From Chloroflexota bacterium (lineage in GTDB: Bacteria; Chloroflexota; Dehalococcoidia; CAUJGQ01): 56,377 nucleotides of DNA. The translations under genes and the position numbers were made by a program. The DNA lies in the NCBI GenBank assembly GCA_963170165.1, contig CAUJGQ010000010.1:1-56377 (forward strand), written 5' to 3'. Under the pieces are notes generated by a model. The model did no database searches. It saw only the letters and a program-made list of their open reading frames with translations, and had not been told where the DNA came from. Below, in pieces: positions 23,123 to 40,960 of the stretch; position 1 is the first letter of the stretch; each line of letters begins with the position of its first letter.

Positions 23123-23184
23123 GAGGCAGGGGCACGGGGCGGTTGGCTCCGTGCCTTTGTGTGATTGCGACCTCCGGCGGAACG

Positions 23185-24600
23185 ATGGAGCACAGCGCGA
23201 CCGAGGCACCCACACAGCGCCTCGCCGGCCGGCCGGCCACGCGGCCGGGGCGCAGCCGTGCACGGCCCTGGCTGTTCACGCTGGCGCTACTCGTACTGGC
23301 GGCGCTATCGGCCTACCCGGTAGCCGTTATCGCCCTGCGCCTCGATCAACTGTTTTTGCCCGGCAATGAGCTGGCGCTGCCCGCCCCACTCAAGGCTGTC
23401 CCCGGCTTCGCTACCGAGCCCCCCGCCGCCGTCAGCCTGCCCAGCGAGCGCATCAATATCCTCGTGCTCGGTCTGGACCGGCGTCCATTTGAGGGACAAG
23501 AGCCAACCCGCTCAGACACGATGTTTGTGCTGACGCTCGACCCCGCCACGCGCACCGGCGGCGTGTTGAGCATCCCGCGCGATCTGTGGGTCGAGATCCC
23601 CAACGGCCGCGGCGGTGTGTTCGAGGACCGTATCAACACCGCCTACCGCTACGGTGGCTTCACACCCAGCTATCCCGGCGGTGCGGCCGGTGCGGCCAAG
23701 GCCACCATTGAGCACAACTTCCCTCAGATTCGGATCGATTACGAGGTCGCCATCGACTTCACCGCCTTCGTCAAGATCGTGGACACGCTTGGCGGCGTCG
23801 ACGTCACGATCCCGGAGAGCTTCCGCTACACCGAGCGCGTCTCCGTGGACGGCTTCAATGGGGTACTGCCAGAGTTCCGCGCCGGCATTGAGCGCATGAA
23901 CGGCGAACGAGCGCTGTACTATGCCCGCTATCGCGGTGGTATCGATGGCGACCTGGGCCGGATCAAGCGCCAGCAGCAGGTGATGGTGGCGGTTGCCAAC
24001 CGCGCCGTCAGCATTGACGCTGCCGCGCGCACCCCAGAGCTGTGGGCCCGCTTCAAAGACGCTATGGAGACCGACATTCCCTCGTACCGGCTGCCCGGCA
24101 TCGCCCTATTGGCCAAGCAGGTAGGGCTTGACCGGGTGGTGATGAAGTCGTTGGGCGATGTCACGCACGAGGCAATCACGGACGGCGGCGCCGATGTGCT
24201 CGTTGCCGACCCGGGCGATATTGCCGGCGTGGTCAACGAGCTGTTCTTCGACCCCGGCCTGCGCACCGAGTCGGCCAAGATCGATGTCCAGAACGGCACA
24301 CAGCGTGCCGGGCTGGCAACCGCCACCGCCACCTATCTCGTCCGCCACGGCCTATCCTCTCAGCTGGTTACGGTGTCGCCTTCGTCACCGCCGCCGCAGG
24401 ACGAGACGGTGATCATGTCGTACGGCGGCAAAGATTACACGGCTCTGCGGCTGGCCGAATGGCTGGGCCTGCCTGCCTCCCGCGTGCGCCCAAGCCGGGA
24501 TACCGCCACCCGCCCGCCCGGCAGCGCCGACATCGTCGTCATCCTCGGGCGGGACGCGCGCATCGCCGGCATGCCCCAAAACGCCGCCGCCCCGCGATGA
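23185..24600 (+). CDS. LytR-CpsA-Psr (LCP) family glycopolymer transferase
   Basis: A 471-residue protein with an N-terminal cytoplasmic tail, one membrane helix (about 33-52), the LCP catalytic domain (about 85-290; INILVLGLDRR, SDTMFVLTLDP, LSIPRDLWVEIPN, RINTAYRYGG) and a C-terminal LytR_C domain (IDVQNGTQRAGLA to VVILGRDA). LCP enzymes transfer undecaprenyl-linked glycopolymers to the cell wall. Conserved Asp and Arg residues are present, so it should be active. It opens the polysaccharide locus and overlaps the next gene by ATGA, implying coupled translation. ATG 23185 is chosen over the in-frame upstream start at 23143, which falls in the leader. Confidence 0.93.
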   Translation: MEHSATEAPTQRLAGRPATRPGRSRARPWLFTLALLVLAALSAYPVAVIALRLDQLFLPGNELALPAPLKAVPGFATEPPAAVSLPSERINILVLGLDRRPFEGQEPTRSDTMFVLTLDPATRTGGVLSIPRDLWVEIPNGRGGVFEDRINTAYRYGGFTPSYPGGAAGAAKATIEHNFPQIRIDYEVAIDFTAFVKIVDTLGGVDVTIPESFRYTERVSVDGFNGVLPEFRAGIERMNGERALYYARYRGGIDGDLGRIKRQQQVMVAVANRAVSIDAAARTPELWARFKDAMETDIPSYRLPGIALLAKQVGLDRVVMKSLGDVTHEAITDGGADVLVADPGDIAGVVNELFFDPGLRTESAKIDVQNGTQRAGLATATATYLVRHGLSSQLVTVSPSSPPPQDETVIMSYGGKDYTALRLAEWLGLPASRVRPSRDTATRPPGSADIVVILGRDARIAGMPQNAAAPR

Positions 24601-26099: not shown

Positions 26100-26115
26100 C
26101 AGGAACGAGGCCGCC

Positions 26116-27624
26116 GTGGTGGCGGAAACATCCACCGTGCACACCATTCCCCGGCCTTCCGGCCCGCCCGCATCGCCGGCGCCGCTAACTCGCATCCGGA
26201 CGGGGCTTGACCGGCTCTTCGCGCTGGACTTCACGCGACGGCCGCAGGCCATCGTGCTGGCGCTGCTGTTCGTCCTCAGCCGCGCCTCACAGCTCAATCT
26301 CGGCTACGGCGCCGACGCCGATGCCTGGCGAGTGGCGATCACCGGCCACTGGTTCTGGGAGCACGGCCAGTTCTATCCGTCACGCCTGCCCGGCTATCCG
26401 CTGCACGAACTCATCACCACGCTGATCATCGGCGGCGGCTGGCTGGCGACGAACACTGCCACCATGCTGGTCGCTCTGGCCGGGGTGTTCATCTTCGCGG
26501 CCATCGTCAAGCGGCTGGCCATCGAGCCCAAGGGGTTGCTGACGCTGACGTATGCGTTTACGCCGCTGCTATGGAATGCCAGCACCGTCACTATGGACTA
26601 CATGTGGGGGCTGACGTTCACGCTGGGCGCCTACCTGCTGCTGATTCGCCGCCAGTACTTGCTGGCGGGTGTGGTGCTGGGCATTGCCGCCGGATTCCGG
26701 CCGGTGTCCATCGCCTTTGCTGGGCCGTTCCTGCTCGTGGTCGTGCGCGGCCGCGACTTCGGCGGCGCTGCGCGGCTCCTCGGTGGCGCGCTGGGGACGG
26801 CGGCGGCGGTGTTCGCCCCCATCTGGTGGCGGTACGGCACACGCTTCCTTGATTTCGCGGACTGGCGGCCGCCCTGGGGTGAGACGGCACGGGCGCTGGG
26901 TGTAGAAGCGCTGGGGCTCATGCCCGCCGTCACGCTGGGCATCCTGTTGCTGCTGTCGCTGCCACGGCTGCGGCTGGTGCCGGGTTGGGTACGGCGTGAC
27001 GGGCACTTCGCCGCGCAACTCGCAGCCACCCTGATGATCGCCGCCGTGTTCGTGCGGTTGCCGCTGGAAGAAGGTTATCTGATCCCGGCGGCGCCGTTCG
27101 CGCTACTGGTCGTGGCGCGCCTGTTCCGGCGGCCGCTGCTGGTGACGGCCTGCGTCGTGGTCGTGCTGGGCGCCTTCCTCGACATCCACACCGCTTCCTC
27201 CGAAGGCTGGCGTTCGCCGGCGGCGCTGCTCTACCTGCGCCCGGAGAAGGGACGGGTGCTGGTTGATCGTGCCCTGCGCCAACAGCGCATGCAGGTGGCC
27301 GATGAGACGTGGACGTCAGCCCTCCCGGACAATGCCGTGGTGACGATGGGATACTACTACCCGATTTTCGCCGAGATGTACCACGACCGGACGGAGCTAC
27401 GCTTTCGCGAGGATTTTGACCCGCGCGTCATCGGACCGCTGACGGACATCACCGAGGCGGTAGACCAGCGCAACCGGGTGTTCGTGTGGCTGCTGACGGA
27501 AGGGCAGGTGCGCGAGTACCGCAGGCGCGGCTACCGCACCTTCACGATGGACTACCGCAGCACAGAACGCTTGACCCTGGAAGAGACGCTCAACCCGGCG
27601 CTGGAACGCTACGGTCCCCGTTGA
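26116..27624 (+). CDS. GT-C-like polytopic membrane protein, paralogue 2
   Basis: A 502-residue protein with about ten helices and a C-terminal soluble part. It shares with paralogue 1 the loop LGYGADADAWRV, the YPSRLPGYPLHE block, similar helix spacing and a C-terminal tail with a late Y-R-x-Y segment, so the pair arose by tandem duplication. A GT-C transferase role is inferred. The start is uncertain: GTG 26116 or GTG 26119, both after a CGAGG weak site; an in-frame TTG at 26071 overlaps the promoter and is less likely. A short basic N-terminal extension of about 40 residues precedes the first helix. Confidence 0.7.
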   Translation: MVAETSTVHTIPRPSGPPASPAPLTRIRTGLDRLFALDFTRRPQAIVLALLFVLSRASQLNLGYGADADAWRVAITGHWFWEHGQFYPSRLPGYPLHELITTLIIGGGWLATNTATMLVALAGVFIFAAIVKRLAIEPKGLLTLTYAFTPLLWNASTVTMDYMWGLTFTLGAYLLLIRRQYLLAGVVLGIAAGFRPVSIAFAGPFLLVVVRGRDFGGAARLLGGALGTAAAVFAPIWWRYGTRFLDFADWRPPWGETARALGVEALGLMPAVTLGILLLLSLPRLRLVPGWVRRDGHFAAQLAATLMIAAVFVRLPLEEGYLIPAAPFALLVVARLFRRPLLVTACVVVVLGAFLDIHTASSEGWRSPAALLYLRPEKGRVLVDRALRQQRMQVADETWTSALPDNAVVTMGYYYPIFAEMYHDRTELRFREDFDPRVIGPLTDITEAVDQRNRVFVWLLTEGQVREYRRRGYRTFTMDYRSTERLTLEETLNPALERYGPR

Positions 27625-28010: not shown

Positions 28011-29438
28011 ATGAGCATCGCCTTCAACTCCCTGCGCAATATCTTCGTCCGCTCGTTCACGGTCGTGTTTCTGCTCACGATCAGTGTCCTGACGGCGCGG
28101 CTGCTGGGGCCCGAAGGCAGCGGCGTCTACGCGCTGGTTGCGCTGTACTCCTCCATCGGGGTGGCGGCGCTGGGCGGCATGGGCGCCGCCGCGGGCCGCT
28201 GGATTGCGAACCTGCGCCGCCCAGTACCGGAGGTGGTGGCCAACATTACGGCGCTGGCGCTAGTGGCAGGAACAGCGGCGCTGGCGCTGCTGATCGCCAT
28301 TTACTGGCTGGCCGGGCTGATCGCCGGCGCGCGGCCGGAATGGCTGTTGTACGTCGGAGCGGCGCAACCGGCGCTGCTGCTTGCCTCGGCGCTGACCTGG
28401 GCCTTCCTCGGCGCGGATGACCACGGCAACTACAGCTGGGCAATCCTCGCTCCAAGCGCCTGCACGCTGCTGCTGATGGGACCGCTGCTGCTGGCCGGTG
28501 GCGACACCGAGACGGCGTTGCTCGGCTGGCTGGCGGCACAATACGCCGTCATCGGCTGGCTGTGGTGGCGCGGGCGCGCGGTATGGACTCCGCTGCCGCT
28601 GGGCGCGGTCACCCTCTCCTCGATGGGCGCCATCGCCGTCTTCAGTGTCATGACCGGGCTGGCAAACCTCGTCTCCATCCTCAACTACCGCGCCGATATG
28701 CTGCTGGTCGAGCACTTCCTTGGCACCGCCGGCACCGGTATCTACTCCAAAGCCGTCCAGCTCGTAGAAGGACTATTCTTCATCTCTCAAGCCGTAGGGG
28801 TGGCAATCCTGCCCAGGGTGGGCGCAGCTGCGCACGACGATGCAGCGGCTCTGGTTGCGCGCAGCATCCGCATCACGCTGGCGCTGATGCTGGCAGCAGG
28901 GCTGCTGCTGTGCGCCGTTGCCGGGCTGCTGATCCCGCTGCTGTTTGGCGCTGACTTTGCCGGGGCAGTCACGCCATTCCGCATCTTCATCCCTGGCGTT
29001 GCCGCCTGGGGCATGGCCAACCTCCTGGCGACCTTCTACACCACCCACCTGGGCCGCCCGCGCGTGCCGCTCCTCACCGCATTGTGGTCACTGGGCATCA
29101 CCGTGCTCTCTAGCCTGGTGCTGATTCCGCTCTGGGGCCTGTCCGGCGCGGCACTGGCAACCACCCTCGGCTATGTCGCGGCCATTGCCGGGGGATTGTG
29201 GCTGTTCCGGCGCGATACGGGCACACCCTGGCGGGCGCTGCTGTTGCCGGACAGCGCCGACCTGCGCGACGGGCGTACGCTCGCCGGCAAGGCGCTGGCG
29301 CTGCTCTGGGGCAGGCGCCAGCCGCCGGAAGCAGCACCCGCGCTCGAACCGGAGGCGGCCGAGCCACTGTTTCGCCGCATCCGTGCCGGCGAGCTGGCTG
29401 ACCGTGGCACCCACCCGGCCGGGGAGCGGTCGCGATGA
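28011..29438 (+). CDS. Wzx-type polysaccharide flippase
   Basis: A 475-residue protein with 12-14 helices of the MOP/MVF superfamily. It begins MSIAFNSLRNIFVRSFTVVF and has LTARLLGPEGSGVYALV, the usual Wzx opening, with YRADMLLVEHFLGTAGTGIY and the helix-8 region typical of flippases. It should move undecaprenyl-diphosphate-linked repeat units across the membrane. Its stop overlaps the next glycosyltransferase start by ATGA. The C-terminal 60 residues are hydrophilic and Arg/Glu-rich, longer than in many homologues. Confidence 0.88.
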   Translation: MSIAFNSLRNIFVRSFTVVFLLTISVLTARLLGPEGSGVYALVALYSSIGVAALGGMGAAAGRWIANLRRPVPEVVANITALALVAGTAALALLIAIYWLAGLIAGARPEWLLYVGAAQPALLLASALTWAFLGADDHGNYSWAILAPSACTLLLMGPLLLAGGDTETALLGWLAAQYAVIGWLWWRGRAVWTPLPLGAVTLSSMGAIAVFSVMTGLANLVSILNYRADMLLVEHFLGTAGTGIYSKAVQLVEGLFFISQAVGVAILPRVGAAAHDDAAALVARSIRITLALMLAAGLLLCAVAGLLIPLLFGADFAGAVTPFRIFIPGVAAWGMANLLATFYTTHLGRPRVPLLTALWSLGITVLSSLVLIPLWGLSGAALATTLGYVAAIAGGLWLFRRDTGTPWRALLLPDSADLRDGRTLAGKALALLWGRRQPPEAAPALEPEAAEPLFRRIRAGELADRGTHPAGERSR

Positions 29439-30358
29439 GTGGCGGCTATTCTGTCGCCACCGGCGGGCTGCCTTACTTCGGCCGGGCGATGGCAGCGCTG
29501 CTATCTGGTGACGGCTGGCAGGCACAGTACCTGGAAACGCGTGGTTGGCGGCCAGACGCGGCGTTGCGGGCACTGACACACGCCCGGCGCGCGGCGGTGT
29601 TGTATCAGCTCGGCGGACAGATCGGCTGGGGTAGCCGCCCGCACCTGCTCGCGCTGACCGTCCGGACGCCGATGGTGATGCACTGGACGGGCACCGACGT
29701 ACTGTACGCCCGCCGGGCAGCGCGGCGCGGACGGGCGGTGACCCGGCTACAGCGCAACATCACCCACTGGGCAGGCGCGCCGTGGCTGGCAGAGGAGCTG
29801 CGATCGGCGGGCGTGGCGGCCACCTGGCAGCCACACAGCGCTATCGCTGCCCCGGCGGCGGTGCCTTCGTTCCCTGAGCGATTCACGATCCTTGCCTATC
29901 TGCGACCGGGCAGGGAGCAGTTCTATGGCGCGGGGTCCATCCTTCAGGCAGCGGCGGCACTGCCAGAGGCGCGGATACTGGTCGCTGGGACGGAGCGGCT
30001 GGCGGGCGCGCCGTCCAACGTCCGCTGCCTCGGTTGGGTGCAGGACATGGCAGCCGTCTACGCAGACAGCCACGTGCTGCTGCGGCTGGCAGCCCATGAC
30101 GGGCTGGCGTTCATGGTGCAGGAGGCTCTGGCGTACGGCCGGCACGCCGTCTGGAATCACTCCCTTCCCGGCGTCTTCGATGTCCGCTCCACCGAGCAGG
30201 CCATTGCCCAACTGCACCGGCTCCGGGACAACCAGGCAGCCGGACGGCTGGCGCCCAACGAAACCGGTGCGCAGCATGTTCGCGAACGGTTCAACCCCGC
30301 TCGCATTCGCGCCGAGCTACGGTCCGCCCTGGCGCGCGTGATTGAGGCCCGCCGGTGA
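29435..30358 (+). CDS. Glycosyltransferase, GT-B type (GT4-like)
   Basis: A 307-residue soluble protein, shorter than the 350-400 typical of GT4. The N-terminus begins with SGGYSVATGGLPYFGRAMAA, a glycine-rich donor-fold start. The C-terminal half has FTILAYLRPGREQFYGAGSIL, VRCLGWVQDMAAVYADSHVLLRL and AAHDGLAFMVQEALAYGRHAVW, where the D-G-L-A and Q-E-A-L-A-x-G pattern replaces the classical E-x7-E motif of GT4. Overlaps on both sides by four bases (ATGA and GTGA) couple it to Wzx and Wzy. Sugar and acceptor are unknown. Confidence 0.75.
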   Translation: MSGGYSVATGGLPYFGRAMAALLSGDGWQAQYLETRGWRPDAALRALTHARRAAVLYQLGGQIGWGSRPHLLALTVRTPMVMHWTGTDVLYARRAARRGRAVTRLQRNITHWAGAPWLAEELRSAGVAATWQPHSAIAAPAAVPSFPERFTILAYLRPGREQFYGAGSILQAAAALPEARILVAGTERLAGAPSNVRCLGWVQDMAAVYADSHVLLRLAAHDGLAFMVQEALAYGRHAVWNHSLPGVFDVRSTEQAIAQLHRLRDNQAAGRLAPNETGAQHVRERFNPARIRAELRSALARVIEARR

Positions 30359-32538
30359 GCGGCATCACCGCCGCTCGGGGCGGAGCCGTGGGGCTGCTGT
30401 GCGCCGCCATTACTGCCGCCGTGCTGGCGCCACCGATTCCGTTGCCCGCCGGCCTGCCGGACCTGCGCGTCGAGCAGGCACTTGCGCTGCCCGCGGGTTT
30501 GTGGCTGCTCGGGGACCTCCGGCGGCAGTGTGACCGGCGGACCGCGGTCCGTGCCTGGCTGCTGCCGTTCGCCCCACTGCTGGTTATGACGGCGGTGTCT
30601 ATCGTCTATGGAGCACTGGTGTTGGGCGAAGCCGCCGGCCCGCGCGATGCCTTCGAGGTGTTGAAGCTCAGCATCTACGCCGTGCTGTTCGGCTTCGCCC
30701 TGCGCGTCTGCGCTGACCCGGAACGCCGGCAGGCGGCGCTGGCGACCGTACTGGCGGCGGGGACGCTCTCCGCCCTCATCGGGCTGGGACAGTACCTTAG
30801 CCTGCCCGGGCTGGTCGAGCATACCGGCGGCTGGTGGGCCCCTGCCCATCACCTGCGCGCGCTAGAGCGGGACGGGCGCGCCTTCGGCACGGTGGGGAAC
30901 CCGAACTACTACGGCGCGCTCATGGCGCTAGTGGCGGTGATGGCACTGGGGTTGCGGCTGCCGCGGCCTCTCACCCCCCGGCCGTCTCTACCCGCTCGCT
31001 GCCCGCCGGCCCCGCTCTCCTTACTGGGGCTTGCCGCCGGGACGCTGGGCGTGGTGCTGTCCGGCTCGCGCGGGGCGTTGGGGATGCTGATAGCCGCTGC
31101 GCTGACGGTACTGGTGCTGGCTCTCCGGCGGGGTGGATCTCGCCGCGCGGCGCCGGCCGCCATGGCAACGCTGGCCGGCGCATTTGTGCTGAGCGTGCTG
31201 TTCGTGGAACTGCTGCCACGTGGGCGGGTGGACTATCTGACGCGGGTGGCGGGAACGCTCAGCCCCACGGGGGATAGCGGGCTGGCGCTGCGGCTGGAGC
31301 GCTGGCGGGAGCTACTGGGCCGGGAGCAGCCGGTTACGCCGCCGGCAGGCAGCGCACCGATCACCGACACCGGCCTGCCCGCTGCCTCGCTGGAGGCGCG
31401 TGCCCGTGATGAACGCCGCCGGCAAGATGTCCGGGCGTTGGTGGAGGCCGTCCGCCGCCACCGGGACCGCACCGGCGCCTATCCCGCATCGCTGACGGTG
31501 CTGGCTCCGGCTGAACCAGCGGCGTTACCCGTTGACCCGGCAACCGGCGCAGACTACGGCTACGAGCGCACGACTGGTGGCTTCACCGTGAGCGCCCGGC
31601 TCGAGAATCCTGCTGATGTGGATTACCCGCTCTATGCCACCGGCGACACCGTCAACCTGCTGCGCAACGGCAGCGCGGAGGAAGGCGGTGACCGGGCGGC
31701 GGAGTTCCGCATCATCCCAGGAACGGCCGTCAGCCGGAGGGAGGACGCGGCGCTGTACGGCGCGGCCGGGCTGCGCTACACCGGCACGGCCGCGCACACC
31801 GCCCGCCGCGCGGCCGTCTACCAGCAACGGGCGCTCAACCGCTCTGGTGGCTCGCCTTTTACCGCCGCCGTGTGGGTACGCCACGACAACGCGGTAGCCG
31901 GTGAGGTGTTTCTGTATGTCAACATCTACTACACCGACGGCAGCCGTCAGGACCCGGCCGCCCGCACAGCCGCCGACCCGGCGCGAACCGGCATCTGGCA
32001 GCGGCTCGCGCTAACGCTCACGCCTGACGCGGGCAAGCGCGTGGACTTCCTCGGCGTCTACCTGCTGTCCGACAGCTTCCAGGGGCAGGTATCGGCCGAC
32101 GGCTTTCTGCTGGTGGAGGGAAGCGTGCCCGTGAGCTTCATCGGTCTGGCAGAGGGGGAACCCAGCGGGGATGGACAAGACGCCTTGGCGAGGTTTCGCC
32201 GTTCGCCGCTGCTCGGCTCGGGGCCAGGTAAGGCGGAGGATGGCGCGACCGTCGATAACGAGTACCTGGCGGTGATGAGCCGCTACGGCCTGGCCGGATT
32301 GATAGCGTATCTATGGCTGTGGGGGCTGACCGCATGGCGGGCAGCGCGGGCGGGTAGGGCGGCAGCGGCAGCGGTGGCCGGTAGCGTGGCCGGGCTGCTG
32401 CTGTTCAGCCTGGTGGCGGGCAGTCTGTATCACATGCAGCTGATGGACAGCTTCTGGCTGCTGGCCGGCGCGATGTCCGCTACCCTACCGTCGCTACCAG
32501 CAGCAGCAGCACGATCAGCGCCATCCACACCAGGCTGA
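30355..32538 (+). CDS. Wzy/O-antigen-ligase-type polymerase with inserted soluble modules
   Basis: A 727-residue protein; typical Wzy/WaaL proteins are 400-450. About ten N-terminal helices (to about 300) are followed by LRLERWRELL (313-322), then about 290 extra residues, then RFRRSPLLGSGPG (612-624) and NEYLAVMSRYGLAGLIAYL, which complete the Wzy_C active loop, and two or three last helices. The insertion has a pseudopilin-like segment (353-419: alpha region, GAYPASLTVL, PVDPATGADYGY) and a beta-rich segment (434-590) that opens NLLRNGSAEEG, like CBM4/9 carbohydrate-binding modules. GTG start in GTGA overlap with the glycosyltransferase. The 3' end overlaps the convergent DUF5706 gene by 59 bases. 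Confidence 0.8.
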   Translation: MSGITAARGGAVGLLCAAITAAVLAPPIPLPAGLPDLRVEQALALPAGLWLLGDLRRQCDRRTAVRAWLLPFAPLLVMTAVSIVYGALVLGEAAGPRDAFEVLKLSIYAVLFGFALRVCADPERRQAALATVLAAGTLSALIGLGQYLSLPGLVEHTGGWWAPAHHLRALERDGRAFGTVGNPNYYGALMALVAVMALGLRLPRPLTPRPSLPARCPPAPLSLLGLAAGTLGVVLSGSRGALGMLIAAALTVLVLALRRGGSRRAAPAAMATLAGAFVLSVLFVELLPRGRVDYLTRVAGTLSPTGDSGLALRLERWRELLGREQPVTPPAGSAPITDTGLPAASLEARARDERRRQDVRALVEAVRRHRDRTGAYPASLTVLAPAEPAALPVDPATGADYGYERTTGGFTVSARLENPADVDYPLYATGDTVNLLRNGSAEEGGDRAAEFRIIPGTAVSRREDAALYGAAGLRYTGTAAHTARRAAVYQQRALNRSGGSPFTAAVWVRHDNAVAGEVFLYVNIYYTDGSRQDPAARTAADPARTGIWQRLALTLTPDAGKRVDFLGVYLLSDSFQGQVSADGFLLVEGSVPVSFIGLAEGEPSGDGQDALARFRRSPLLGSGPGKAEDGATVDNEYLAVMSRYGLAGLIAYLWLWGLTAWRAARAGRAAAAAVAGSVAGLLLFSLVAGSLYHMQLMDSFWLLAGAMSATLPSLPAAAARSAPSTPG

Positions 32539-33261: not shown

Positions 33262-33924
33262 ATGCTCCGCCGCCGCGTAGTCCCCCTGGTGGCATTGGTG
33301 ATCGCGGCGCTGGCGGCTGTCTTCCCGGGCGGGCTGCGCGCTGAATTCCCGGTAGTGGTGCTGCAGGACGACTTCGAGGACCCGCAGCGCGGGGTACTGC
33401 CACGCACCTCCACCAGCCCAGCGGACTTCTGGCTGGGATACACCGGCGGCAAGTACCGCATCTGGAAGCTCAACCCCACCTATGACGGAGCACCCGCTGC
33501 TTTCCTCAGCCCGGTGCTGGCCGATAGTTCGCTCGCCATTGATGCCTGGCTGACGGATGACACCCAAGGCGGCTACCTGGATCTGTGGTGCCGCCGCGGC
33601 ATCGGGCCAGCGGTCAACGGCTACCGGCTTTCAATCTTCACCCGGCTCAATAGCTACCTGCTCACCCGCTGGGACGGCGGTGCTCCCGTAGTACTGGCCA
33701 GCGGCAGCCTGCCCACCGCAATTGCCGACCAGTGGTTCCGCGCCGAATTCCAGTGCGCCGGGCCGCGGCTCACCGGCCTGGTCAACGGTGTTGCGGCCGT
33801 CTCAGTGGAGGACGCCACGCATCAGCAGGGCCAGATGACGCTGGGCGCCGGGGTAGCGACCGACCATGGCCCCGGCACCGTAGACGCCTGGTTCGACAAC
33901 TTCATCCTCAGCCGGCCGCAATGA
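33262..33924 (+). CDS. Secreted concanavalin-A-like (jelly-roll) protein
   Basis: A 220-residue protein with an N-terminal signal (RRRVVPLVALVIAALAAVFP, cleavage likely after GLRAE or nearby). The mature part is beta-rich with Trp and Asp: DDFEDPQRGVLP, YRIWKL, LDLWCRRG, YRLSIFTR, WFRAEFQCAGPRLTGLVNG and VDAWFDNFILS. That pattern is shared by LamG/DUF1080-type domains of secreted glycan-binding or glycan-hydrolysing proteins; no catalytic pair is evident. It overlaps the next glycosyltransferase by ATGA. Probably binds the polymer outside the cell (inference). Confidence 0.68.
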   Translation: MLRRRVVPLVALVIAALAAVFPGGLRAEFPVVVLQDDFEDPQRGVLPRTSTSPADFWLGYTGGKYRIWKLNPTYDGAPAAFLSPVLADSSLAIDAWLTDDTQGGYLDLWCRRGIGPAVNGYRLSIFTRLNSYLLTRWDGGAPVVLASGSLPTAIADQWFRAEFQCAGPRLTGLVNGVAAVSVEDATHQQGQMTLGAGVATDHGPGTVDAWFDNFILSRPQ

Positions 33925-35117
33925 CCGCGGCTCCGCCGGCACGTGTCTGCATCCTCACCTCAGTGCACGACCCGTTCGACCCGCGAATCTTCCACAAACA
34001 GGCGCGGACGCTGGCCACGGCCGGCTATTCGGTGCTGCTGCTCGCCCCGTCTTCGGTCTGCGCCACGGTCGATGGTGTGCGGGTGGTGGGGTTACCGCCG
34101 CCGCGCTCTCGCTGGGGACGGCCGCGGCTGTGGTGGCGGCTGCTGCGGGCGGCGCGGCGGACGCGGGCAGACATCTACCACTTCCATGACCCAGAACTCC
34201 TGCCGCTGGGGCTGCTGCTGGCGCGGCTCACCGGCCGGCCCGTCGTGTACGACGCGCACGAGTACTACCGCGAGGAACTGCTGACCCGCCCCTGGATTCC
34301 CCGGCGGCTACGCAGGATTGCAGCCGAGGCCGTGCACCGGATGGAGTCCCTGGCAGCCCGACGCCTGGCAGCGGTGGTGACAGTGAACGAGCACATGGCC
34401 GCTGGGTTCCGCTCCCGCGGCGCTCGCCGGGCAGTCGCCATCCACAATTACCCGTCGCTGGCTTACTTCCCCGCACCGGTCACCCATCATGACCCATCTC
34501 CCGTCGTTGTCTATGCCGGGTTGCTGAACGAGGAGCGCGGTCTTTCCACCGTCTGGCACGCCACCCGCGCGCTGCGGTTGTCGCTGCCGGACGCCTTGGT
34601 GCGCATCATCGGTCGAGTTGACTTCAGCGCGGCTCCGGCGGCGGTGTCGCGGGAGAGCAGCACTTGGGAGCAGCAGACGGCCGCTCGGTTGCAGGGCGTG
34701 ATCCCCGCGACGGAGGTGCCGGCCGCACTGGCAGCGGCGGCGGCCGGCTGGATTCCATTCCGGCCCACACCCAACAACACACGGGCCGTACCGCTCAAGC
34801 TGCTGGAGTACATGGCGGCAGGACTGCCGGTCGTTGCCTCGGACGCCGGAGTGATGGCCGCCATCGTGCGCGCGGCCGGCTGCGGCCTGCTCGTCCCGGC
34901 AGATGATCCACAGGCGCACGCGGCGGCACTGGCGCGTTTGCTGCGCAATCCGGACGACGCGCGGGCGATGGGCATCGCCGGACGGCGCGCGGTGGAGACC
35001 CGGTACACGTGGGAGGCGGAAGCGGGGCGGCTGCGGTCGCTGTACCGTGACCTGCTGGCCGGGGCCCGTCAGGCGACGATGTCGTCCTCCAGCGGGCTGG
35101 ACAGCCAGCGGGCATAG
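33921..35117 (+). CDS. Glycosyltransferase family 4
   Basis: A 398-residue GT-B enzyme. The N-terminal domain has ILTSVHDPFDPRIFHKQARTL and YDAHEYYREELL; the C-terminal domain has VVYAGLLNEERGL, GWIPFRPTPNNTRAVPLKLLEYMAAGLPVVASD split across the donor site, and LLVPADDPQAHAAALARLL. The usual EYMAAGLP motif with its Glu is intact, so it should be active. ATGA overlap couples it to the jelly-roll gene. The donor sugar cannot be read; members use GDP- or UDP-sugars with retention of configuration. Confidence 0.9.
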   Translation: MTAAPPARVCILTSVHDPFDPRIFHKQARTLATAGYSVLLLAPSSVCATVDGVRVVGLPPPRSRWGRPRLWWRLLRAARRTRADIYHFHDPELLPLGLLLARLTGRPVVYDAHEYYREELLTRPWIPRRLRRIAAEAVHRMESLAARRLAAVVTVNEHMAAGFRSRGARRAVAIHNYPSLAYFPAPVTHHDPSPVVVYAGLLNEERGLSTVWHATRALRLSLPDALVRIIGRVDFSAAPAAVSRESSTWEQQTAARLQGVIPATEVPAALAAAAAGWIPFRPTPNNTRAVPLKLLEYMAAGLPVVASDAGVMAAIVRAAGCGLLVPADDPQAHAAALARLLRNPDDARAMGIAGRRAVETRYTWEAEAGRLRSLYRDLLAGARQATMSSSSGLDSQRA

Positions 35118-35340: not shown

Positions 35341-35450
35341 TGCCGGCCGGACCCAGCTTCCATGGGGGAAGCAACCGAATTTCTGCCGTACCGGCGCGGC
35401 GGTTCTCAACAGCGCCGCAAACGGCCCGGCTGGCGCGAGGGCCAGACGGC

Positions 35451-36515
35451 ATGCCACGCTACAGCGGTATGCCACCACCATCGCCGCCGCCACTGATCTC
35501 CATTGTCCTGGCCGTGCGCAACGAAGCGCGGTATCTGCCGCGCTGCCTGGCGGCGCTCGCCTGCCAGGAATACCCGGGCGACCGGATCGAGGTGCTCATC
35601 GCCGATGGCGGCTCCACGGACGGCACCGCTGAGCTGGCTCGTGCCCAGGACGGCGTCACCGTGATTGACAATCCGGCGCACGTCACGCCGGCAGGGTTCA
35701 ACGCCGGCATTCGGGCAGCACGCGGTGAAGTGATCATCATCCTGGGCGCGCGGGCAGAAGTGGCCCCTGACTTCGTCGCCCAGAGCGTGGCGGCGCTGGC
35801 GCGGACTGGCGCCGATGCGGTGGGCGGCGTCGTGGATAGCCGCCCGTGGGACGCAACCAGCGCCACCGCCCGCGCGATTGCCCTGGCACTGCGCTCCCCG
35901 TTTGGCGCCGGCGGTGCCCGCTACCGCTACGCGACCACCGAGCAGGTGACCGACACCGTCAACTACGGCGCGTACCGGCGAGAGGTGTTCACCCGTATCG
36001 GGCTGTTCGATGAGGCGCTGGCATATGTGGAAGATGACGAGTTCAACTACCGGCTGCGCGCTGCCGGTGGCCGGTTGGCGCTCTCCCCCAAGATCCGCGT
36101 TACCTACTACAGCCGGCCGGCGCTCCGAGCGCTGTGGCGGCAGCAGTACCATTGGGGCCGGAACAAGCCCAAGGTCGCCCGCCGTCATCCTGGCCAGATG
36201 CGCCCGCGCCAGGCGATCCCCGCCGCCTTCGTCGCAACCGTGCTGCTGTCGTCCGTGGCCGCACCCTGTCTGCGGCCTGCCCGGCAGCTGCTGGCGGTAG
36301 TAGTGGGGATGTACGGCGCGGCGACCGTCCTGGCAACGGTGCTGGCGGCGCGCAGCGCGGCGGCCGGGCGCGATATGCCCGCTCTTGTCCGGCTGCCGCT
36401 TGCTTTTGCAGCGATGCACCTGGGCTATGGCGCCGGGATGCTGGTGGGGCTGGCGCGGCGGGTGTGGCGGGAGGACCGCGGCGCTGCGCCGGCCGGCGGA
36501 GATGGGCGGCCATGA
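35451..36515 (+). CDS. Glycosyltransferase family 2, ExoA-like
   Basis: A 354-residue protein: an N-terminal GT-A domain (ISIVLAVRNEARYLPRCLAAL, VLIADGGSTDGT) and two to three C-terminal helices, the plan of ExoA-type succinoglycan glycosyltransferases. EDDEFNYRL is the conserved acceptor-side acidic motif and WRQQYHWGRNK is the family's late arginine-rich segment. The usual D-A-H metal-binding triad is replaced by LGARAEVAPDF, so the catalytic metal ligand is altered. The start is uncertain between ATG 35451 and ATG 35469; the longer frame upstream is non-coding. It overlaps the methyltransferase by ATGA. Confidence 0.82.
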   Translation: MPRYSGMPPPSPPPLISIVLAVRNEARYLPRCLAALACQEYPGDRIEVLIADGGSTDGTAELARAQDGVTVIDNPAHVTPAGFNAGIRAARGEVIIILGARAEVAPDFVAQSVAALARTGADAVGGVVDSRPWDATSATARAIALALRSPFGAGGARYRYATTEQVTDTVNYGAYRREVFTRIGLFDEALAYVEDDEFNYRLRAAGGRLALSPKIRVTYYSRPALRALWRQQYHWGRNKPKVARRHPGQMRPRQAIPAAFVATVLLSSVAAPCLRPARQLLAVVVGMYGAATVLATVLAARSAAAGRDMPALVRLPLAFAAMHLGYGAGMLVGLARRVWREDRGAAPAGGDGRP

Positions 36516-37198
36516 GCGAGTTGGAGCGCATCCGCCGGGTGTACGCCCGCCGCCGGGCCGAGGGCAGAGAGGCCCGCTACACCGTATTTGAGCGTGGCAA
36601 TCTGTTCCGGCTGCTGACGCTGGAGCGCGACCTTGTAGCGGCGCTGGCAGCAGAGGGACTGACCGAGATGCCAGCACTGCGGGCGCTGGATGCGGGCTGT
36701 GGCGGCGGCTGGTGGCTGCGCACGCTGCTGCGCTGGGGTGCGCGACCAGAACATCTGGCCGGGATCGACCTGTTGCCGGAGGCCATAGCCGCCGCCCGCG
36801 CCGTGCATCCCGACGTGCGCATTGAGCAGGGCACCGCCGAGCGGTTGCCGTTCTCGGACGGCAGCTTCGACCTGGTCTCACAGTTCACGGTGTTCAGCTC
36901 CATCCTGGACCGGCCGATGCAGCGGCGGATTGCGGCAGAGCTGGTGCGGGTGCTCAGGCCTGGTGGTGTGGTGCTGTGGTACGATTTCACGGTCAATCCT
37001 GGGAATCGGGACACGCGTGGCATCCGTAGGGACGAACTGGCGGCGCTGTTTCCCGCATGCCGGCTGCGCTGCCGCCGCGTCACGCTGGCCCCGCCACTTG
37101 CCCGGCTGATTACCTCCCGCTCCTGGCTGGCGGCAGCAGCCCTGGAGTCCATCCCACTGTTGCGCACTCATCTGCTTGCCACGATACGCCGCCCATGA
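36512..37198 (+). CDS. Class I SAM-dependent methyltransferase
   Basis: A 228-residue enzyme. Motif I is ALDAGCGGGWWLRTLL (about 57-72), motif II has GIDLLPEAIAAAR, and AERLPFSDGSFDLVSQFTVF followed by VLRPGGVVLWYDF completes the Methyltransf_11 pattern. It should transfer a methyl group from S-adenosylmethionine to a sugar or a lipid-linked glycan in this locus. Both ends are in ATGA overlap with neighbours, so it is translated together with the GT2 and the aminotransferase. The exact acceptor is unknown. Confidence 0.87.
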   Translation: MSELERIRRVYARRRAEGREARYTVFERGNLFRLLTLERDLVAALAAEGLTEMPALRALDAGCGGGWWLRTLLRWGARPEHLAGIDLLPEAIAAARAVHPDVRIEQGTAERLPFSDGSFDLVSQFTVFSSILDRPMQRRIAAELVRVLRPGGVVLWYDFTVNPGNRDTRGIRRDELAALFPACRLRCRRVTLAPPLARLITSRSWLAAAALESIPLLRTHLLATIRRP

Positions 37199-38358
37199 CG
37201 CACACCGACCCGCTGCCCTATAACCGCCCAGATATCACCGAAGAAGAAATCGCCGAGGTCGTGGCGACGCTGCGCTCCGGCTGGCTGACGACTGGCCCGC
37301 GCGCCGCCCGGCTGGAGCAGGAGTTCGCCGCCTACACGGGCGCGGCCCACGCTCTGGCGCTCAACTCCGCCACGGCCGCCCTGCATCTCGGCCTGGAGGC
37401 CGCCGGGGTGAGCGCGGGTGATGAGGTCATCACGACGCCGCTCACCTTCGCCGCGTGCGCCAACGTCATCGTTCATCTGGGCGCAGCGCCGGTGCTGGCA
37501 GATGTGTGCGCCGACGACCTGAACATCGACCCCGAGCAGGTCGAGCGCCACATCACCCCCCGCACGAAAGCCGTGATGGCTGTCCATTACGCAGGGCAGC
37601 CCTGCCAGATGGATGCCCTGCTGGACCTGTGCCGCCGCCGCGGGCTCTTCCTGCTGGAGGACGCCGCCCACGCCACCGGCGCGATGTACCGCGGGCAAAT
37701 GATCGGTGCGCTGGGCGACGCGACGGCGTTCAGCTTCTACGCGACCAAGAACCTGACGACGGGCGAGGGGGGGATGCTCACCACCAACCGGCCCGAGGTG
37801 GCGGAGCGGGCACGAATCATGACGCTACACGGCATGAACCGTGACGCCTGGAAGCGCTATGACCGCGGCGGCTCCTGGTATTACGAGGTGGTGGCTCCCG
37901 GCTACAAGTACAACATGCCGGATATCGCCGCCGCGCTGGGCCAGGTGCAACTGCGCCGGCTGGAGGAGATGAACGCCCGTCGCGCCGCGCTCGCCATGCG
38001 CCTCTCCGCCGCACTGGCGGACTGCGAGCCCATCCAGCTGCCCGACGCCCGCCCGGAGGTACGGCACGTCTGGCATCTGTACGTTATCCGCATCCGGGCC
38101 GAGGCCTTGCGGATCGACCGTGCCCGCTTCATTGAGGAACTGGCGGCGCGCGGCGTAAGCACGTCCGTCCATTTCATCCCGATTCACTACCACCCGTACT
38201 ACCGTGAAGGGTTCGGATTTGAGCGTGGCAGCCTGCCCGTGACGGAAGGGGAGTACGAGCGGCTGATCTCCCTGCCGCTGTATCCAACGATGACCGAGGC
38301 TGACGTGGACCGGGTGGCGGACGCGGTGCGCGATGTGGCGCGGGAGTGGCGGCGGTGA
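37195..38358 (+). CDS. DegT/DnrJ/EryC1 sugar aminotransferase (PglE-like)
   Basis: A 387-residue PLP enzyme. It begins PLPYNRPDITEEEIAEVV, has AHALALNSATAALHLGLEA, the LLEDAAHATG PLP-aspartate segment and FYATKNLTTGEGGML with Lys185 as the PLP lysine. Enzymes of this group aminate 4-keto-6-deoxy nucleotide sugars. With the downstream phosphoglycosyltransferase and CapD/PglF-like dehydratase it would form a UDP-4-amino-sugar branch like that of bacillosamine synthesis. The C-terminus overlaps the next gene by GTGA. UDP-GlcNAc-derived substrate is an inference. Confidence 0.92.
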   Translation: MTHTDPLPYNRPDITEEEIAEVVATLRSGWLTTGPRAARLEQEFAAYTGAAHALALNSATAALHLGLEAAGVSAGDEVITTPLTFAACANVIVHLGAAPVLADVCADDLNIDPEQVERHITPRTKAVMAVHYAGQPCQMDALLDLCRRRGLFLLEDAAHATGAMYRGQMIGALGDATAFSFYATKNLTTGEGGMLTTNRPEVAERARIMTLHGMNRDAWKRYDRGGSWYYEVVAPGYKYNMPDIAAALGQVQLRRLEEMNARRAALAMRLSAALADCEPIQLPDARPEVRHVWHLYVIRIRAEALRIDRARFIEELAARGVSTSVHFIPIHYHPYYREGFGFERGSLPVTEGEYERLISLPLYPTMTEADVDRVADAVRDVAREWRR

Positions 38359-38957
38359 CGGCACGGCTGAGCCCAATGCGCCGGCTGCTTGATCTGTACA
38401 TCGCCGGTGTGGGGCTGGCACTGGTGTGGCCGCTCCTGGCGCTGCTGGCGCTGCTCATCCGGCTGGAGTCACCTGGTTCGCCCATCTTCACCCAGCAGCG
38501 CGTTGGTCTACGCGGCCGGCCGTTTACCATCTACAAGTTTCGCTCTATGCGCCGGGACGCGCCCGCCGCCGCTGTCCACGTGGACGACTTCTCCAGCTTT
38601 GTGTTCACGCCGCAGGGCCACGATCCCCGCCGTACGCGCCTGGGCGGCGTGGTGCGCCGTACCAGCTTCGATGAGGCGCCGCAGCTGCTCAACGTCCTGC
38701 GCGGGCAGATGACCATCGTCGGCCCGCGCCCGGAGATCCCTGATGTCGTGGCCCAGTACCCTCCCTCCTACCACCGCCGTCACGACGTGCTCCCCGGCAT
38801 CACCGGCTTGGCGCAGATCCACGGCCGCTCCGACCTGCCATACGCCTGCGTGATGGCCTGGGACCTTGCGTACGTCCGCCACCGAACGGACGCCCTCGAT
38901 GCCGCGATCCTGCTGCGCACGGCGTTGCCGGTGCTGACGGGCGAAGGGGCGCGATAG
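38355..38957 (+). CDS. Small phosphoglycosyltransferase (PglC/WcaJ-C type)
   Basis: A 200-residue monotopic enzyme with a single N-terminal membrane segment (about 12-38), followed by the catalytic core: PIFTQQRVGLRGRPFTIYKFRSMR, then RTSFDEAPQLLNVLRGQM, IVGPRPEIP and a late PGITGLAQIHGRS. These are the conserved features of initiating phosphoglycosyltransferases, including the DE pair that forms the phospho-sugar intermediate. It would transfer a sugar phosphate from a UDP-sugar to undecaprenyl phosphate. GTG 38355 overlaps the aminotransferase stop (GTGA); GTG 38346 is an alternative three codons earlier. Confidence 0.93.
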   Translation: MTARLSPMRRLLDLYIAGVGLALVWPLLALLALLIRLESPGSPIFTQQRVGLRGRPFTIYKFRSMRRDAPAAAVHVDDFSSFVFTPQGHDPRRTRLGGVVRRTSFDEAPQLLNVLRGQMTIVGPRPEIPDVVAQYPPSYHRRHDVLPGITGLAQIHGRSDLPYACVMAWDLAYVRHRTDALDAAILLRTALPVLTGEGAR

Positions 38958-39079: not shown

Positions 39080-40960
39080 ATGATCCCACGTACCTACCGC
39101 TCAGCCTTGCGACTGCTTATCGAAGTGCTGCTAGACGGCGCCATCGTCGCCAGCAGTTACTGGGTGGGGCTGTTGCTCCGCTTCGACGGGGACATCCCCG
39201 CCGCGTCGTGGGAGGCCTTCCGCCAGACGGTGCCGCTGATTGTGCTGGCCTACCTGGTGGCCAATGTGCTCAGCGGCGTCTATCGCACCGCCTGGCAGTA
39301 CGGCGGGCTGGGCGACGTCCTTAACCTGGGTCGCGGTGTGCTGGCGGTCACGGCCGCCATCGTGCTGTACAACCTCACACGAGATGAACGCCACCTGCCA
39401 TTGTCCGTCAATGTCATCGCCGGGGCGGTCACCTTCCTGGGGATGGCCTTCTGGAAGATGATGCCGCGGCTGCGGGCCCATCGCTTTCATCGTGTGCGCC
39501 GCGCCGCCGACCACCGGGCCAAGCGGCTGCTGATCATCGGCGCGGGCAACACCGGGCAGTTGGTGGCGCGCGAGTTCCTGCAACACCGCGACTGGGAATT
39601 CCGCCCCATCTGCTTTGCCGATGACGACCCCGCCAAGCGGGGCAAGCGCGTTCACGGCGTGCCGGTGGCGGGCAGCACCAACGACCTCACGGAGCTGGTG
39701 GACCGTTTCCGGATTGACGTCGTAGCGCTGGCGGTGGCCTCGGCCTCGCGGGTGCGGGTGCGCGAGCTGCTCGGCGTCTGCCAGGCCGCAGGCGTGCCCG
39801 TGCGCATGGTGCCGGGGTTACCGGAGATCGTCCAGGACCCGCACACGTTGTCGCACCTGCGCGAGGTGACGGTCGAAGACCTGCTCGGACGCGACCCCGT
39901 CGAAATCGACTACAGCCAGTGCCTGGAGACCATTCGCAATCAAGTCGTGCTGATCACCGGCGCGGCGGGTTCCATCGGCGCCGAACTGGCACGGCAAGCG
40001 CTCAGCTTCCGGCCGGCGGGACTGCATCTGCTGGACAACAATGAGACCGGCCTGTTCGAGCTGGCGCAGGAGCTTCAGCGGGAGGCCGCCGAGCACGGCG
40101 TAGACCTGCGGCTGTGGCCGGCCACCATCGCCGCTGGGGACAAGCTGGCACGCGTGTTCGCCGCGGTGCGCCCGGCACTCGTGTTCCACGCCGCCGCGTA
40201 TAAGCATGTCGGCCTGATGGAGGAGCATCCAGACGAAGCGTTCCGCGTCAACGTGCTCGGCACACGCAACGTCTTTCGGGCGGCGGCGGCAGCGGGCGCG
40301 GCCAAGGTGGTGTTCATCACCACGGATAAGGCTGTGAAGCCCGTCTCAGCCTATGGCGCCACCAAGCGCATCGGCGAGTTGCTGGTGCTGGCAGCAGCGG
40401 AGCAGCGCACGAGCGCCACGGTGTTCTGTGCCGTCCGCTTTGGCAACGTCATCGGCAGCCGGGGCAGCGTGGTGCCGCTGTTCAACCGCCAGATTCAGCA
40501 GGGCGCGCCGATCAGCATCACCGATCCTGACGCCGCCCGGTACTTCCTCACTATCCCTGAGGCCGTCAGTCTGGTGATTCAGGCGGCGGCCTTCGCTCAG
40601 CAGGGGCAGATCTTCATGCTGGATATGGGCGAGGAGGTCCGCATTCTCGACCTGGCGGAGAAGATGATCCGTCTGCGCGGCCTCACCCCGGGCGCGGATG
40701 TGCCCATTATCTACACCGGGCTGCGACCGGGGGAGAAGGTCCGTGAAGAGCTGGTAGCGGACCACGAGCAGCAAACCGCCACCCATCACCCCAAGGTGAT
40801 GCTCACCTTCGCCGGTGGGCCGGTGCCCGCGGTGGAACTGGAGCGGCAGATCGACGCTCTGGCCACCCGCCTGGAGCAGCCAGAGCGCACCGCGTTCATC
40901 GAGCAGATCCACCGCCTGGCGCGGCTCGGACCGGCTGGCGCGCCCGTCCCCGAGCGCTAG
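39080..40960 (+). CDS. CapD/PglF/WbpM-like nucleotide-sugar dehydratase
   Basis: A 626-residue membrane-anchored enzyme: about four N-terminal helices (to 130), a CoA-binding-like/first Rossmann domain with LLIIGAGNTGQLVA (about 150), then the catalytic Rossmann domain with LITGAAGSIGAELARQAL, AAYKHVGLMEEHP and FITTDKAVKPVSAYGATKR. Long family members remove water from UDP-GlcNAc at C4/C6. They usually carry Met in place of the catalytic Tyr (xxxM-GATK); here Tyr425 and Lys429 form a YxxxK pair. It closes the glycan locus and has its own promoter. Confidence 0.92.
   Translation: MIPRTYRSALRLLIEVLLDGAIVASSYWVGLLLRFDGDIPAASWEAFRQTVPLIVLAYLVANVLSGVYRTAWQYGGLGDVLNLGRGVLAVTAAIVLYNLTRDERHLPLSVNVIAGAVTFLGMAFWKMMPRLRAHRFHRVRRAADHRAKRLLIIGAGNTGQLVAREFLQHRDWEFRPICFADDDPAKRGKRVHGVPVAGSTNDLTELVDRFRIDVVALAVASASRVRVRELLGVCQAAGVPVRMVPGLPEIVQDPHTLSHLREVTVEDLLGRDPVEIDYSQCLETIRNQVVLITGAAGSIGAELARQALSFRPAGLHLLDNNETGLFELAQELQREAAEHGVDLRLWPATIAAGDKLARVFAAVRPALVFHAAAYKHVGLMEEHPDEAFRVNVLGTRNVFRAAAAAGAAKVVFITTDKAVKPVSAYGATKRIGELLVLAAAEQRTSATVFCAVRFGNVIGSRGSVVPLFNRQIQQGAPISITDPDAARYFLTIPEAVSLVIQAAAFAQQGQIFMLDMGEEVRILDLAEKMIRLRGLTPGADVPIIYTGLRPGEKVREELVADHEQQTATHHPKVMLTFAGGPVPAVELERQIDALATRLEQPERTAFIEQIHRLARLGPAGAPVPER

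Follow-up and report, generated by a model that had tools for sequence, protein, structure and literature searches.

Introduction

In our judgement, it is still an open question how Wzy polymerases retain a growing chain and control its length, and the loops of these proteins are hard to study. The window, meaning here the whole analysed stretch of 56,377 nucleotides from a Chloroflexota genome (class Dehalococcoidia, contig CAUJGQ010000010.1), encodes a Wzy_C-type protein in which two elements of the catalytic loop lie far apart. What fills this gap, and what could it contribute to the synthesis of a surface glycan? The analyses reported below make it very likely that the large loop is interrupted between R313 and PLLGxG/D634 by two modules, of which the first resembles a pseudopilin and the second a CBM4/9 domain (Table 1). 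The function of this arrangement is inferred.

Table 1. Coordinates of the Wzy_C-type protein, its sequence elements and neighbouring genes in the window.
Feature	Residues	Position	Strand	Remarks
LytR-CpsA-Psr (LCP) protein		23143..24600	+	
Wzx-type flippase (Polysacc_synt_3)		28011..29438	+	
GT4-like glycosyltransferase		29435..30358	+	Directly upstream; 22.9 bits, under Pfam cut-off of 27; neighbour in 6/6 relatives
Wzy_C-type protein (likely polymerase) with two inserted ectodomain modules		30355..32538	+	727 aa, GTG start
R-L-E-R-W	313-317	31291..31305	+	Last conserved element N-terminal to the insert
Pseudopilin (GspG/T2SSG)-like module	~343-432	31381..31650	+	Without N-terminal prepilin helix
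CBM4/9-like beta-sandwich module	~433-595	31651..32139	+	
S-PLLGSGPG	617-625	32203..32229	+	Wzy_C domain resumes; PLLGSGPG is 618-625
DNEY	634-637	32254..32265	+	Invariant in 7/7 family members
GT4 glycosyltransferase		33921..35117	+	Downstream; neighbour kept in 6/6 relatives
GT2 glycosyltransferase		35367..36515	+	
DegT-type sugar aminotransferase		37192..38358	+	
Initiating sugar-phosphate transferase (Bac_transf)		38355..38957	+	
Nucleotide-sugar dehydratase/epimerase (Polysacc_synt_2)		39080..40960	+	

The Wzy_C core and the insertion point

The Pfam model Wzy_C (PF04932) matched the window protein only partially (residues 225-319; 22.6 bits at a cut-off of 31.7), and this match stops at the start of the insert. 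Two relatives exceeded the cut-off in the genome search (35.4 and 32.1 bits), and the other relatives with a match stayed below it. When the family of seven proteins was compared half by half with a profile built from eight ordinary members of Wzy_C, the N-terminal half aligned up to template column 277 (E = 1.3e-10) and the C-terminal half from column 336 onward (E = 1.2e-8; both are one-pair E-values), with the two halves in the same order as in ordinary members. Simple prediction by hydropathy and charge count indicated a multi-TM protein whose long exterior loop lies towards the C-terminus; the charge count placed this loop of 350 residues outside, with some of the TM segments positioned by hand.

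The insert position within the catalytic loop is exact. Among 17 ordinary Wzy_C-type proteins from the phylum, the spacing between the loop arginine and the proline of PLLGxG is precisely 15 residues in all but one, as opposed to 305 in the window protein and 306-322 in its six relatives. The single exception, L035, has a spacing of about 33 (manual count) and lacks the proline. The sample first comprised 15 ordinary proteins, to which L035 and L033 (spacing of 15, also counted manually) were added after initial omission; L037 and L008 represent one gene. Across the seven members the extra loop sequence amounts to ~290-307 residues, which form the two modules.

R313 is invariant in all seven members and is, by analogy with O-antigen ligase (PMC10920833), a candidate for the diphosphate-binding arginine. 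The residue aligned with the acceptor-activating histidine of ordinary Wzy_C proteins is D634, an aspartate in 7/7 members; by motif, 14 of the 17 ordinary proteins have histidine at this position and two have serine, with one unresolved. The acceptor-activating residue is reported to be Asp/Glu in SEDS and in almost every related family of polymerases, and histidine in ligases (PMC10920833). R313 and D634 thus meet the sequence criterion for polymerases (a conserved arginine plus Asp/Glu at the acceptor-activating position) in 7/7 members, and the criterion for ligases and PglL-type O-oligosaccharyltransferases, a catalytic histidine, is not met in any. Since this aspartate replaces the ligase histidine throughout the family and the surrounding gene cluster is of the Wzx/Wzy type, the protein is likely a polymerase rather than a ligase; polymerase activity is inferred here, in the absence of activity data.

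The open reading frame, both flanking motifs and a separation of about 290 residues between the Wzy_C elements had been described in a first-pass annotation made without database searches, and all of these held. Its assumption of a catalytic arginine and histidine in the loop held for the arginine, with R313 as the candidate, but not for the histidine.

The pseudopilin-like module

The module at residues 343-432 corresponds to the soluble portion of GspG-type pseudopilins, as shown via sister modules on other proteins. A profile built from six sister modules outside Wzy retrieved nine PDB matches, of which eight were type II secretion pseudopilins (best E = 5.6e-5), seven of them named G/EpsG. 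The Wzy insert in turn matched the sister modules at 97.6% (one-pair E = 4.1e-12, 81 columns), compared with only 0.13% for the CBM module used as a control. The Pfam model T2SSG matched 7 of the 17 sister-bearing proteins scanned, three of them above its cut-off. Direct searches with the Wzy modules were weak: T2SSG matched 0/7, a PDB search with all seven modules found GspG only at E = 0.63 and below unrelated matches, and one with a single module returned no pilin. The case for GspG rests on the bridge through the sister modules. Among Wzy carriers the sister profile retrieved the window module alone at E = 0.01, an observation that counts against the bridge, although it is not shown whether the other six carriers were in the search set.

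Both the prepilin signal and the hydrophobic N-terminal helix are absent from the module, which starts in a hydrophilic linker. The Foldseek and VIA lists contained no pilins, but the beta-sandwich fills both lists, and they hence provide no evidence either way. Direct homology to conventional type IV pilins was rejected: hhalign comparisons with 22 of the phylum's pilins gave 1-4%, confined to the helix; these were what remained of 24 tails, taken from 30 loci, once the doubtful L094 and L096 had been left out. A match to EAD2 (E = 0.0064, under the cut-off) occurred in one of seven members and was taken as chance. All five members from the family f33 carry a pair of cysteines, the first located in the linker and the second in the pilin helix; the other two members lack cysteines at these places, and a disulfide within the pair is only inferred.

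The sister modules were found on 36 retrieved proteins. In 15 of these they form the C-terminus of multi-TM proteins, all with a PMT_2 glycosyltransferase match, and the other 21 are proteins with a linker and only one TM segment. The N-terminal ectodomain of six PMT_2 carriers showed a weak likeness to 3keto-disac_hyd (5/6 at E up to 1, best 0.0008), and a PDB search with it gave no useful match. No second convincing copy was detected by the module profile in the seven Wzy genomes; six weaker matches there (E = 0.09-0.48) look unrelated by eye.

The CBM4/9-like module

The assignment of residues 433-595 as CBM4/9-like is supported by several comparisons, and sugar binding is an inference without binding data. 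Pfam CBM_4_9 (PF02018; cut-off 25.9) scored 28.1 and 25.3 in two relatives and 13.8 in the window module, and matched 5/7 modules at E up to 10. A PDB profile search matched CBM16 chains (E = 4.7e-5), and predicted strands support a beta-sandwich. Fold comparisons, based on a model of modest confidence for the relative HR29, gave 1gui (CBM4) as the top Foldseek match (E = 5.6e-5), with other sandwiches including capsid proteins also matched, and VIA Z-scores of 9.2 to CBM22 and 8.5 to CBM16, with unrelated sandwiches tied. The AlphaFold models were weak, being built on three-row alignments, and their pLDDT was low (41 at full length, 55.5 for the insert of a relative). No ligand site was identified in the module, and its conserved aromatic columns are possibly only structural.

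Both module calls of the first-pass annotation, made by eye, were upheld, the pseudopilin one via the sister modules, with limits widened from 353-419 to ~343-432 and from 434-590 to ~433-595. Structure prediction for the insert yielded a CBM-like beta-sandwich, at the low confidence given above.

Distribution and conservation

Seven genomes, the window's and six others, share the architecture with both modules. A chimeric assembly, named beforehand as a possible refutation, is thereby ruled out. Identity between the relatives and the window protein is 30-35%. The G023 gene lies in two pieces at two contig ends (N-terminal part on C26, C-terminal part on C55), and the parts were compared separately, unjoined. 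A phylum search with the insert matched 7 of 400 genomes, with both modules only in G000 and G033; the remaining five matches are parts of other proteins. In the class search 17 of 393 genomes matched, seven with this architecture and ten with partial matches to other proteins, and within f33 the architecture occurs in 5 of 38 genomes. No relative was found in plasmid and viral collections. A scan of genome contigs confirmed 2 of 45 candidate stretches, but its peptide patterns were strict and absence elsewhere is not shown.

Mean pairwise identity was 0.32 for the CBM module, 0.38 for the N-terminal core, 0.42 for the pilin module and 0.45 for the catalytic/C-terminal part. The divergence of both modules tracks that of the core (correlations of 0.94 and 0.90), and glycine, aspartate and tryptophan residues are conserved across the seven diverged genomes. 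The CBM module is the least conserved main part, as would be expected of a glycan-specific one.

Gene neighbourhood

Wzx, glycosyltransferases, initiating transferase, sugar-modifying enzymes and LCP protein are all encoded within 18 kb. The order GT4-Wzy-GT4 is kept in 6/6 relatives, with Wzx upstream in the four whose contig is long enough. None of the 20 window genes scanned belongs to a pilin family, and the prepilin signal (N_methyl, TIGR02532) had no match in the window's genome at the thresholds applied, nor in G033; this result covers these two of the seven carriers.

None of the contigs that carry the seven polymerases yielded a Wzz, and in four of the seven genomes none was found anywhere. 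This argument is weak: among ordinary Wzy_C genes from these eight genomes, 6/7 are likewise without a Wzz on the same contig, three carrier genomes have Wzz elsewhere, completeness is just 81% for two of the four Wzz-less genomes, and some of the contigs are short.

Comparison with known systems

Clan GT-C1 includes the bacterial polysaccharide polymerases alongside SEDS (GT119) and the O-antigen ligases (GT121; PMC10920833). The family described here shares with GT-C1 polymerases the many TM helices, the long exterior loop near the C-terminus and the conserved arginine and acidic residue around it, but differs in the two modules within that loop. WaaL and PglL/PglS have the same Wzy_C core and PLLGxG region, from which the family is set apart by its aspartate, its Wzx/Wzy-type setting and the insert. 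The alpha1-C helix, YP turn and following strands of GspG (Pfam T2SSG) are recognisable by profile via the sister modules; unlike GspG, the Wzy module has neither prepilin signal nor hydrophobic alpha1-N and sits within an enzyme loop. The second module resembles CBM 4/9, 16 and 22 in its N-P-S-F-E opening (most members), its beta-sandwich and its profile and fold matches, but it is divergent, its host is a membrane enzyme and no ligand site is apparent. The PMT_2 (GT39-like) carriers of the same class likewise bear the pilin-like module on a multi-TM glycosyltransferase, in their case C-terminally and on a different enzyme family, and no genome was seen with both forms. A published description of a Wzy with a pilin-like and a CBM-like insert was not found in the literature searched, in line with the first-pass statement that none was known.

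Proposed function and alternatives

The explanation that we favour, with a probability of roughly 0.5, is a polymerase with a built-in chain-retention arm; its function is inferred. The Wzy_C-type protein would polymerise lipid-linked repeat units after the neighbouring Wzx has flipped them, with the pilin-like module as a rigid base; next to the active site, the CBM-like module would bind the nascent polymer and retain it there. Catch-and-release has been proposed for Wzy loops (PMC12004945), and the inserted modules would be a folded counterpart of the capture or retention arms proposed for them. The insert may make the polymerase less dependent on a separate Wzz co-polymerase, and the finished chain would be passed to the LCP protein for wall attachment. 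In other bacteria, LytR-CpsA-Psr proteins link completed polymer to the wall. Neither chain holding nor envelope anchoring, the roles first proposed for the insert, has been shown, and without binding, structure or activity data we lean slightly against the retention role taken by itself. The occurrence of the pilin-like module on PMT_2 proteins suggests that its role is perhaps broader than chain holding; known kinds of PMT_2 proteins transfer single sugars.

An alternative that remains possible is a spacer or docking arm. By binding peptidoglycan, the S-layer or a different envelope protein, its two modules would hold the polymerase in place beneath the wall, and the target of the CBM-like fold would then be wall glycan or protein instead of the product. 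The placement of the sister modules, mostly on single-TM proteins with linkers or at PMT_2 ends, is like that of a general surface module, and Tepidiforma isolates of the phylum are monoderms with a wall and an S-layer (PMC10284905). However, the modules are inserted inside the catalytic helix and not at either end of the protein, which suggests a link with catalysis, and the profile search of the seven Wzy genomes offered no convincing second copy as a like-with-like partner.

A relationship to PglL/PilO-like O-oligosaccharyltransferases, with the pilin-like module imitating or presenting a pilin acceptor for protein glycosylation, is unlikely. In its favour, known O-oligosaccharyltransferases of the Wzy_C family act on type IV pilins, with pglL homologues near pilin genes in 21 of 31 cases (PMC3643930), and the module also occurs on PMT_2 proteins, a family that includes protein mannosyltransferases. 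Against it stand the missing catalytic histidine, the unmatched prepilin signal in the two genomes reported and the Wzx/Wzy-type cluster without pilin families among the genes scanned; at the thresholds applied, a pilin acceptor gene, usual but not obligatory for these enzymes, was found neither adjacent nor in the window's genome. Least credible is a neutral domain insertion, in which the modules fold without specific activity. Its rare and patchy occurrence would fit, but both modules are kept in all seven diverged genomes, with conserved glycine, aspartate and tryptophan residues and, in f33, the cysteine pair.

Significance

Beyond the retention arm, a bolder reading is possible, namely that the soluble half of a pseudopilin is a standard accessory of membrane glycosyltransferases using lipid-linked sugars in one Chloroflexota class, where it presents or holds the acceptor. 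It might be inserted in Wzy polymerases of some families and attached to PMT_2 enzymes in others; in Wzy, the pilin module and the CBM might together form a built-in chain holder, conceivably even a protein primer starting the chain, with length set inside the polymerase and not by Wzz. A loop containing two compact domains, which can probably be produced, folded and assayed alone, makes chain holding directly testable. The results also suggest that pseudopilin domains have been reused beyond secretion and pili, repeatedly on membrane glycosyltransferases, and the pilin-like module may represent an unrecognised accessory domain of surface-glycan synthesis.

The probable polymerase gene and its insertion

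The first-pass annotation had described a Wzy polymerase gene with pseudopilin-like and carbohydrate-binding-like modules spliced into its catalytic loop; the ORF is present as described (see table). The Pfam Wzy_C match of its product is confined to residues 225–319 (22.6 bits, cut-off 31.7) and stops right at the start of the insert, which comprises module 1 (pseudopilin-like, residues 343–432) and module 2 (CBM4/9-like, residues 433–595). Among 17 ordinary Wzy_C-type proteins (without insert) of the same phylum, the distance from the loop Arg to the Pro of PLLGxG is exactly 15 residues in 16; in the last, L035, it is about 33 and the Pro is absent (L033 and L035 were counted from the printed sequence). 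In the window protein and six relatives it is 305–322 residues, giving a net insert of 290–307 residues between loop Arg and PLLGxG. The 350-residue loop was placed outside by charge count, with some TM segments set by hand.

The relatives, 30–35% identical to the window protein, occur in G033, G023, G470, G555, G616, and G644 (the G023 copy is broken by a contig break). The recurrence of the architecture in six other genomes thus excludes an assembly artifact, a possibility left open in the first-pass annotation. Few genomes carry this architecture: 7 of 393 in the class and 5 of 38 in genome family f33.

Identity of the modules

Searched alone, the seven Wzy pilin-like modules had no Pfam pilin match, and against the PDB they found GspG only at E 0.63, ranked under unrelated matches. 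Support came from related “sister” modules on non-Wzy proteins. A close one (hhalign 95.4%) on L017, a protein from a different family of the class, had four PDB matches, all GspG (E 0.2–1.3); when it was added to the Wzy modules, GspG rose to first place (E 0.023, four of nine PDB matches). A profile of six sister modules without any Wzy row matched type II secretion pseudopilins in eight of nine PDB hits (best E 5.6e-5; seven named G or EpsG, one titled just “type II secretion protein”). Aligned with the Wzy modules, this profile reached 97.6% (E 4.1e-12), the CBM control against the sister modules giving 0.13%, and it recovered the window's own insert in its genome (E 3.2e-4). Pfam T2SSG was matched by 7 of 17 scanned sister-bearing proteins, above cut-off in L160, L161, and L132. 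Based on these sister-profile, PDB, and T2SSG matches, module 1 is therefore very likely the soluble half of a GspG-type pseudopilin, but, in contrast to such pseudopilins, without the prepilin helix. The ectodomains of all five f33 members (P0002, P0004–P0007) carry a linker Cys and a pilin-helix Cys 50–52 residues apart; the other two members have no Cys at these places.

For module 2, five of the seven copies matched Pfam CBM_4_9 with E values no higher than 10, the best being 9.9e-8; the protein of G033 (HR29) passed the cut-off of 25.9 with 28.1, and that of G555 fell just short (25.3). The module 2 profile matched modules of an S-layer-associated endoglucanase, titled family 16 CBMs (E 4.7e-5). 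From a three-row alignment, AlphaFold modeled the insert of the HR29 protein as a helix, strands, and an eight-strand sandwich, with a mean pLDDT of 55.5; the full-length window protein gave the same element order in a poor model (pLDDT 41). Foldseek placed CBM4 first in a list of mixed sandwiches, and VIA gave Z 9.2 to CBM22 and 8.5 to CBM16, tied with unrelated sandwiches. Both module readings of the first-pass annotation thus held, that of module 1 only via the sister modules and that of module 2 on profile and fold matches together with Pfam matches of which one passed the cut-off; folded elements are predicted in the insert, at low pLDDT.

Sister modules on other proteins

In 386 genomes of the class the sister profile had 43 matches in 18 genomes. 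Apart from the one in the window there were 42, of which 36 were retrieved. Fifteen of the 36 modules form the C-terminus of proteins with 8–11 predicted TM segments, all matching PMT_2 (L160 and L113 under the Pfam cut-off), and in the remaining 21 carriers the module is preceded by a single predicted TM segment. None of the seven Wzy carriers showed a PMT_2 form in the search with the Wzy module profile or in that with the sister profile, the latter of which may have covered only some of them. Six PMT_2 carriers also have an N-terminal ectodomain weakly resembling 3-keto-disaccharide hydrolase. The small proteins of L114–L117 have a Pro- and Thr/Ala-rich linker and four conserved Cys in the GspG-like module.

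Coordinates of the polymerase gene and of recurrent features at related loci
Feature	Location	Strand	Remarks
Wzy_C-type protein with insert	window 30355-32538	+	GTG start, 727 aa
Conserved, apparently secreted protein after downstream GT4	L119:1552-3168	-	
same	L120:1044-2597	-	
same	L121:13091-14653	-	
same	L122:5477-7069	-	
same	L124:2535-4241		
same	L125 about 14337-15833		
PMT_2-type membrane glycosyltransferase, C-terminal GspG-like module	L112:3837-6635		
same	L113:4323-7178		
same	L160:720-3809	-	
same	L167:683-3706		
Small single-TM protein with GspG-like module	L114:6125-6715		
same	L115:6036-6650	-	
same	L117:8056-8763		
same	L116 near 5678-6445		

Core enzyme and gene setting

The N and C halves of the seven-member family matched a profile built from eight ordinary Wzy_C proteins at E 1.3e-10 and 1.2e-8, respectively (one-pair values). 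R297, R313, S617-P618, G621, G623-P624, DNEY, G645, G648, and Q695 are invariant in all seven members, including P0003, a fragment beginning within the core. In the profile alignment, D634, within the invariant DNEY, occupies the His position of ordinary Wzy_C proteins, which by motif reading holds His in 14, Ser in 2, and an unresolved residue in 1 of 17. The equivalent residue is His in O-antigen ligases, whereas it is Asp/Glu in SEDS and all related polymerase families except one (PMC10920833). The Asp therefore favors a polymerase, which we consider likely, over a ligase, with activity inferred from sequence.

The window cluster encodes an LCP protein, a Wzx-type flippase, two GT4-like and one GT2 transferase, a methyltransferase, DegT, an initiating sugar transferase, and a Polysacc_synt_2 enzyme. 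The order GT4-Wzy-GT4 is kept in all six relatives, with Wzx upstream of the polymerase in the four whose contig extends far enough (G470, G555, G023, and G033). Wzz is present in three of the seven carrier genomes, never on the polymerase contig, and absent in four, two of which are just 81% complete.

Several neighboring genes were also recorded. The conserved, apparently secreted protein after the downstream GT4 (517–568 aa, 28–62% identical) occurs in all six relatives, without a Pfam match in the four scanned; no such ORF was called at that place in the window. Between polymerase and next GT4, the window encodes an apparently secreted 220-aa protein (33262-33924) with weak likeness to 3-keto-disaccharide hydrolase (E 0.0074, under cut-off). 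Two adjacent multi-TM proteins lie close to the LCP gene (24597-26030 and 26071-27624), one weakly GT87/PIG-U-like and the other without a Pfam match but with homologs beside small GspG-like proteins; in G051 and G084 such proteins lie near a homolog of 26071-27624.

Possible role of the modules

No description of a pseudopilin-like module on a Wzy_C or PMT protein was met in the literature searched (titles and abstract starts, few subscription papers covered) or in passages of PMC10920833, PMC12800693, PMC3643930, PMC12004945, PMC10284905, and PMC10608941. The position of the modules in the loop points to an action close to the active site. For Wzy loops, a function in capturing the chain and holding on to it has been proposed (PMC12004945). 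The CBM-like module may be a folded form of such a chain-retaining arm, an inference that we hold only tentatively (probability about 0.45), and the pilin-like module would be the pedestal for this arm.

Alternatively, the modules might anchor the polymerase in the envelope, which appears unlikely. Still less probable are a pilin role like that in O-oligosaccharyltransferases and the absence of any role. With regard to the chain-retaining arm, module 2 is the most variable main part of the protein (mean identity 0.32, compared with 0.42 for the pilin-like module and 0.38 and 0.45 for the core parts), as would be expected if the CBM-like module follows the glycan.
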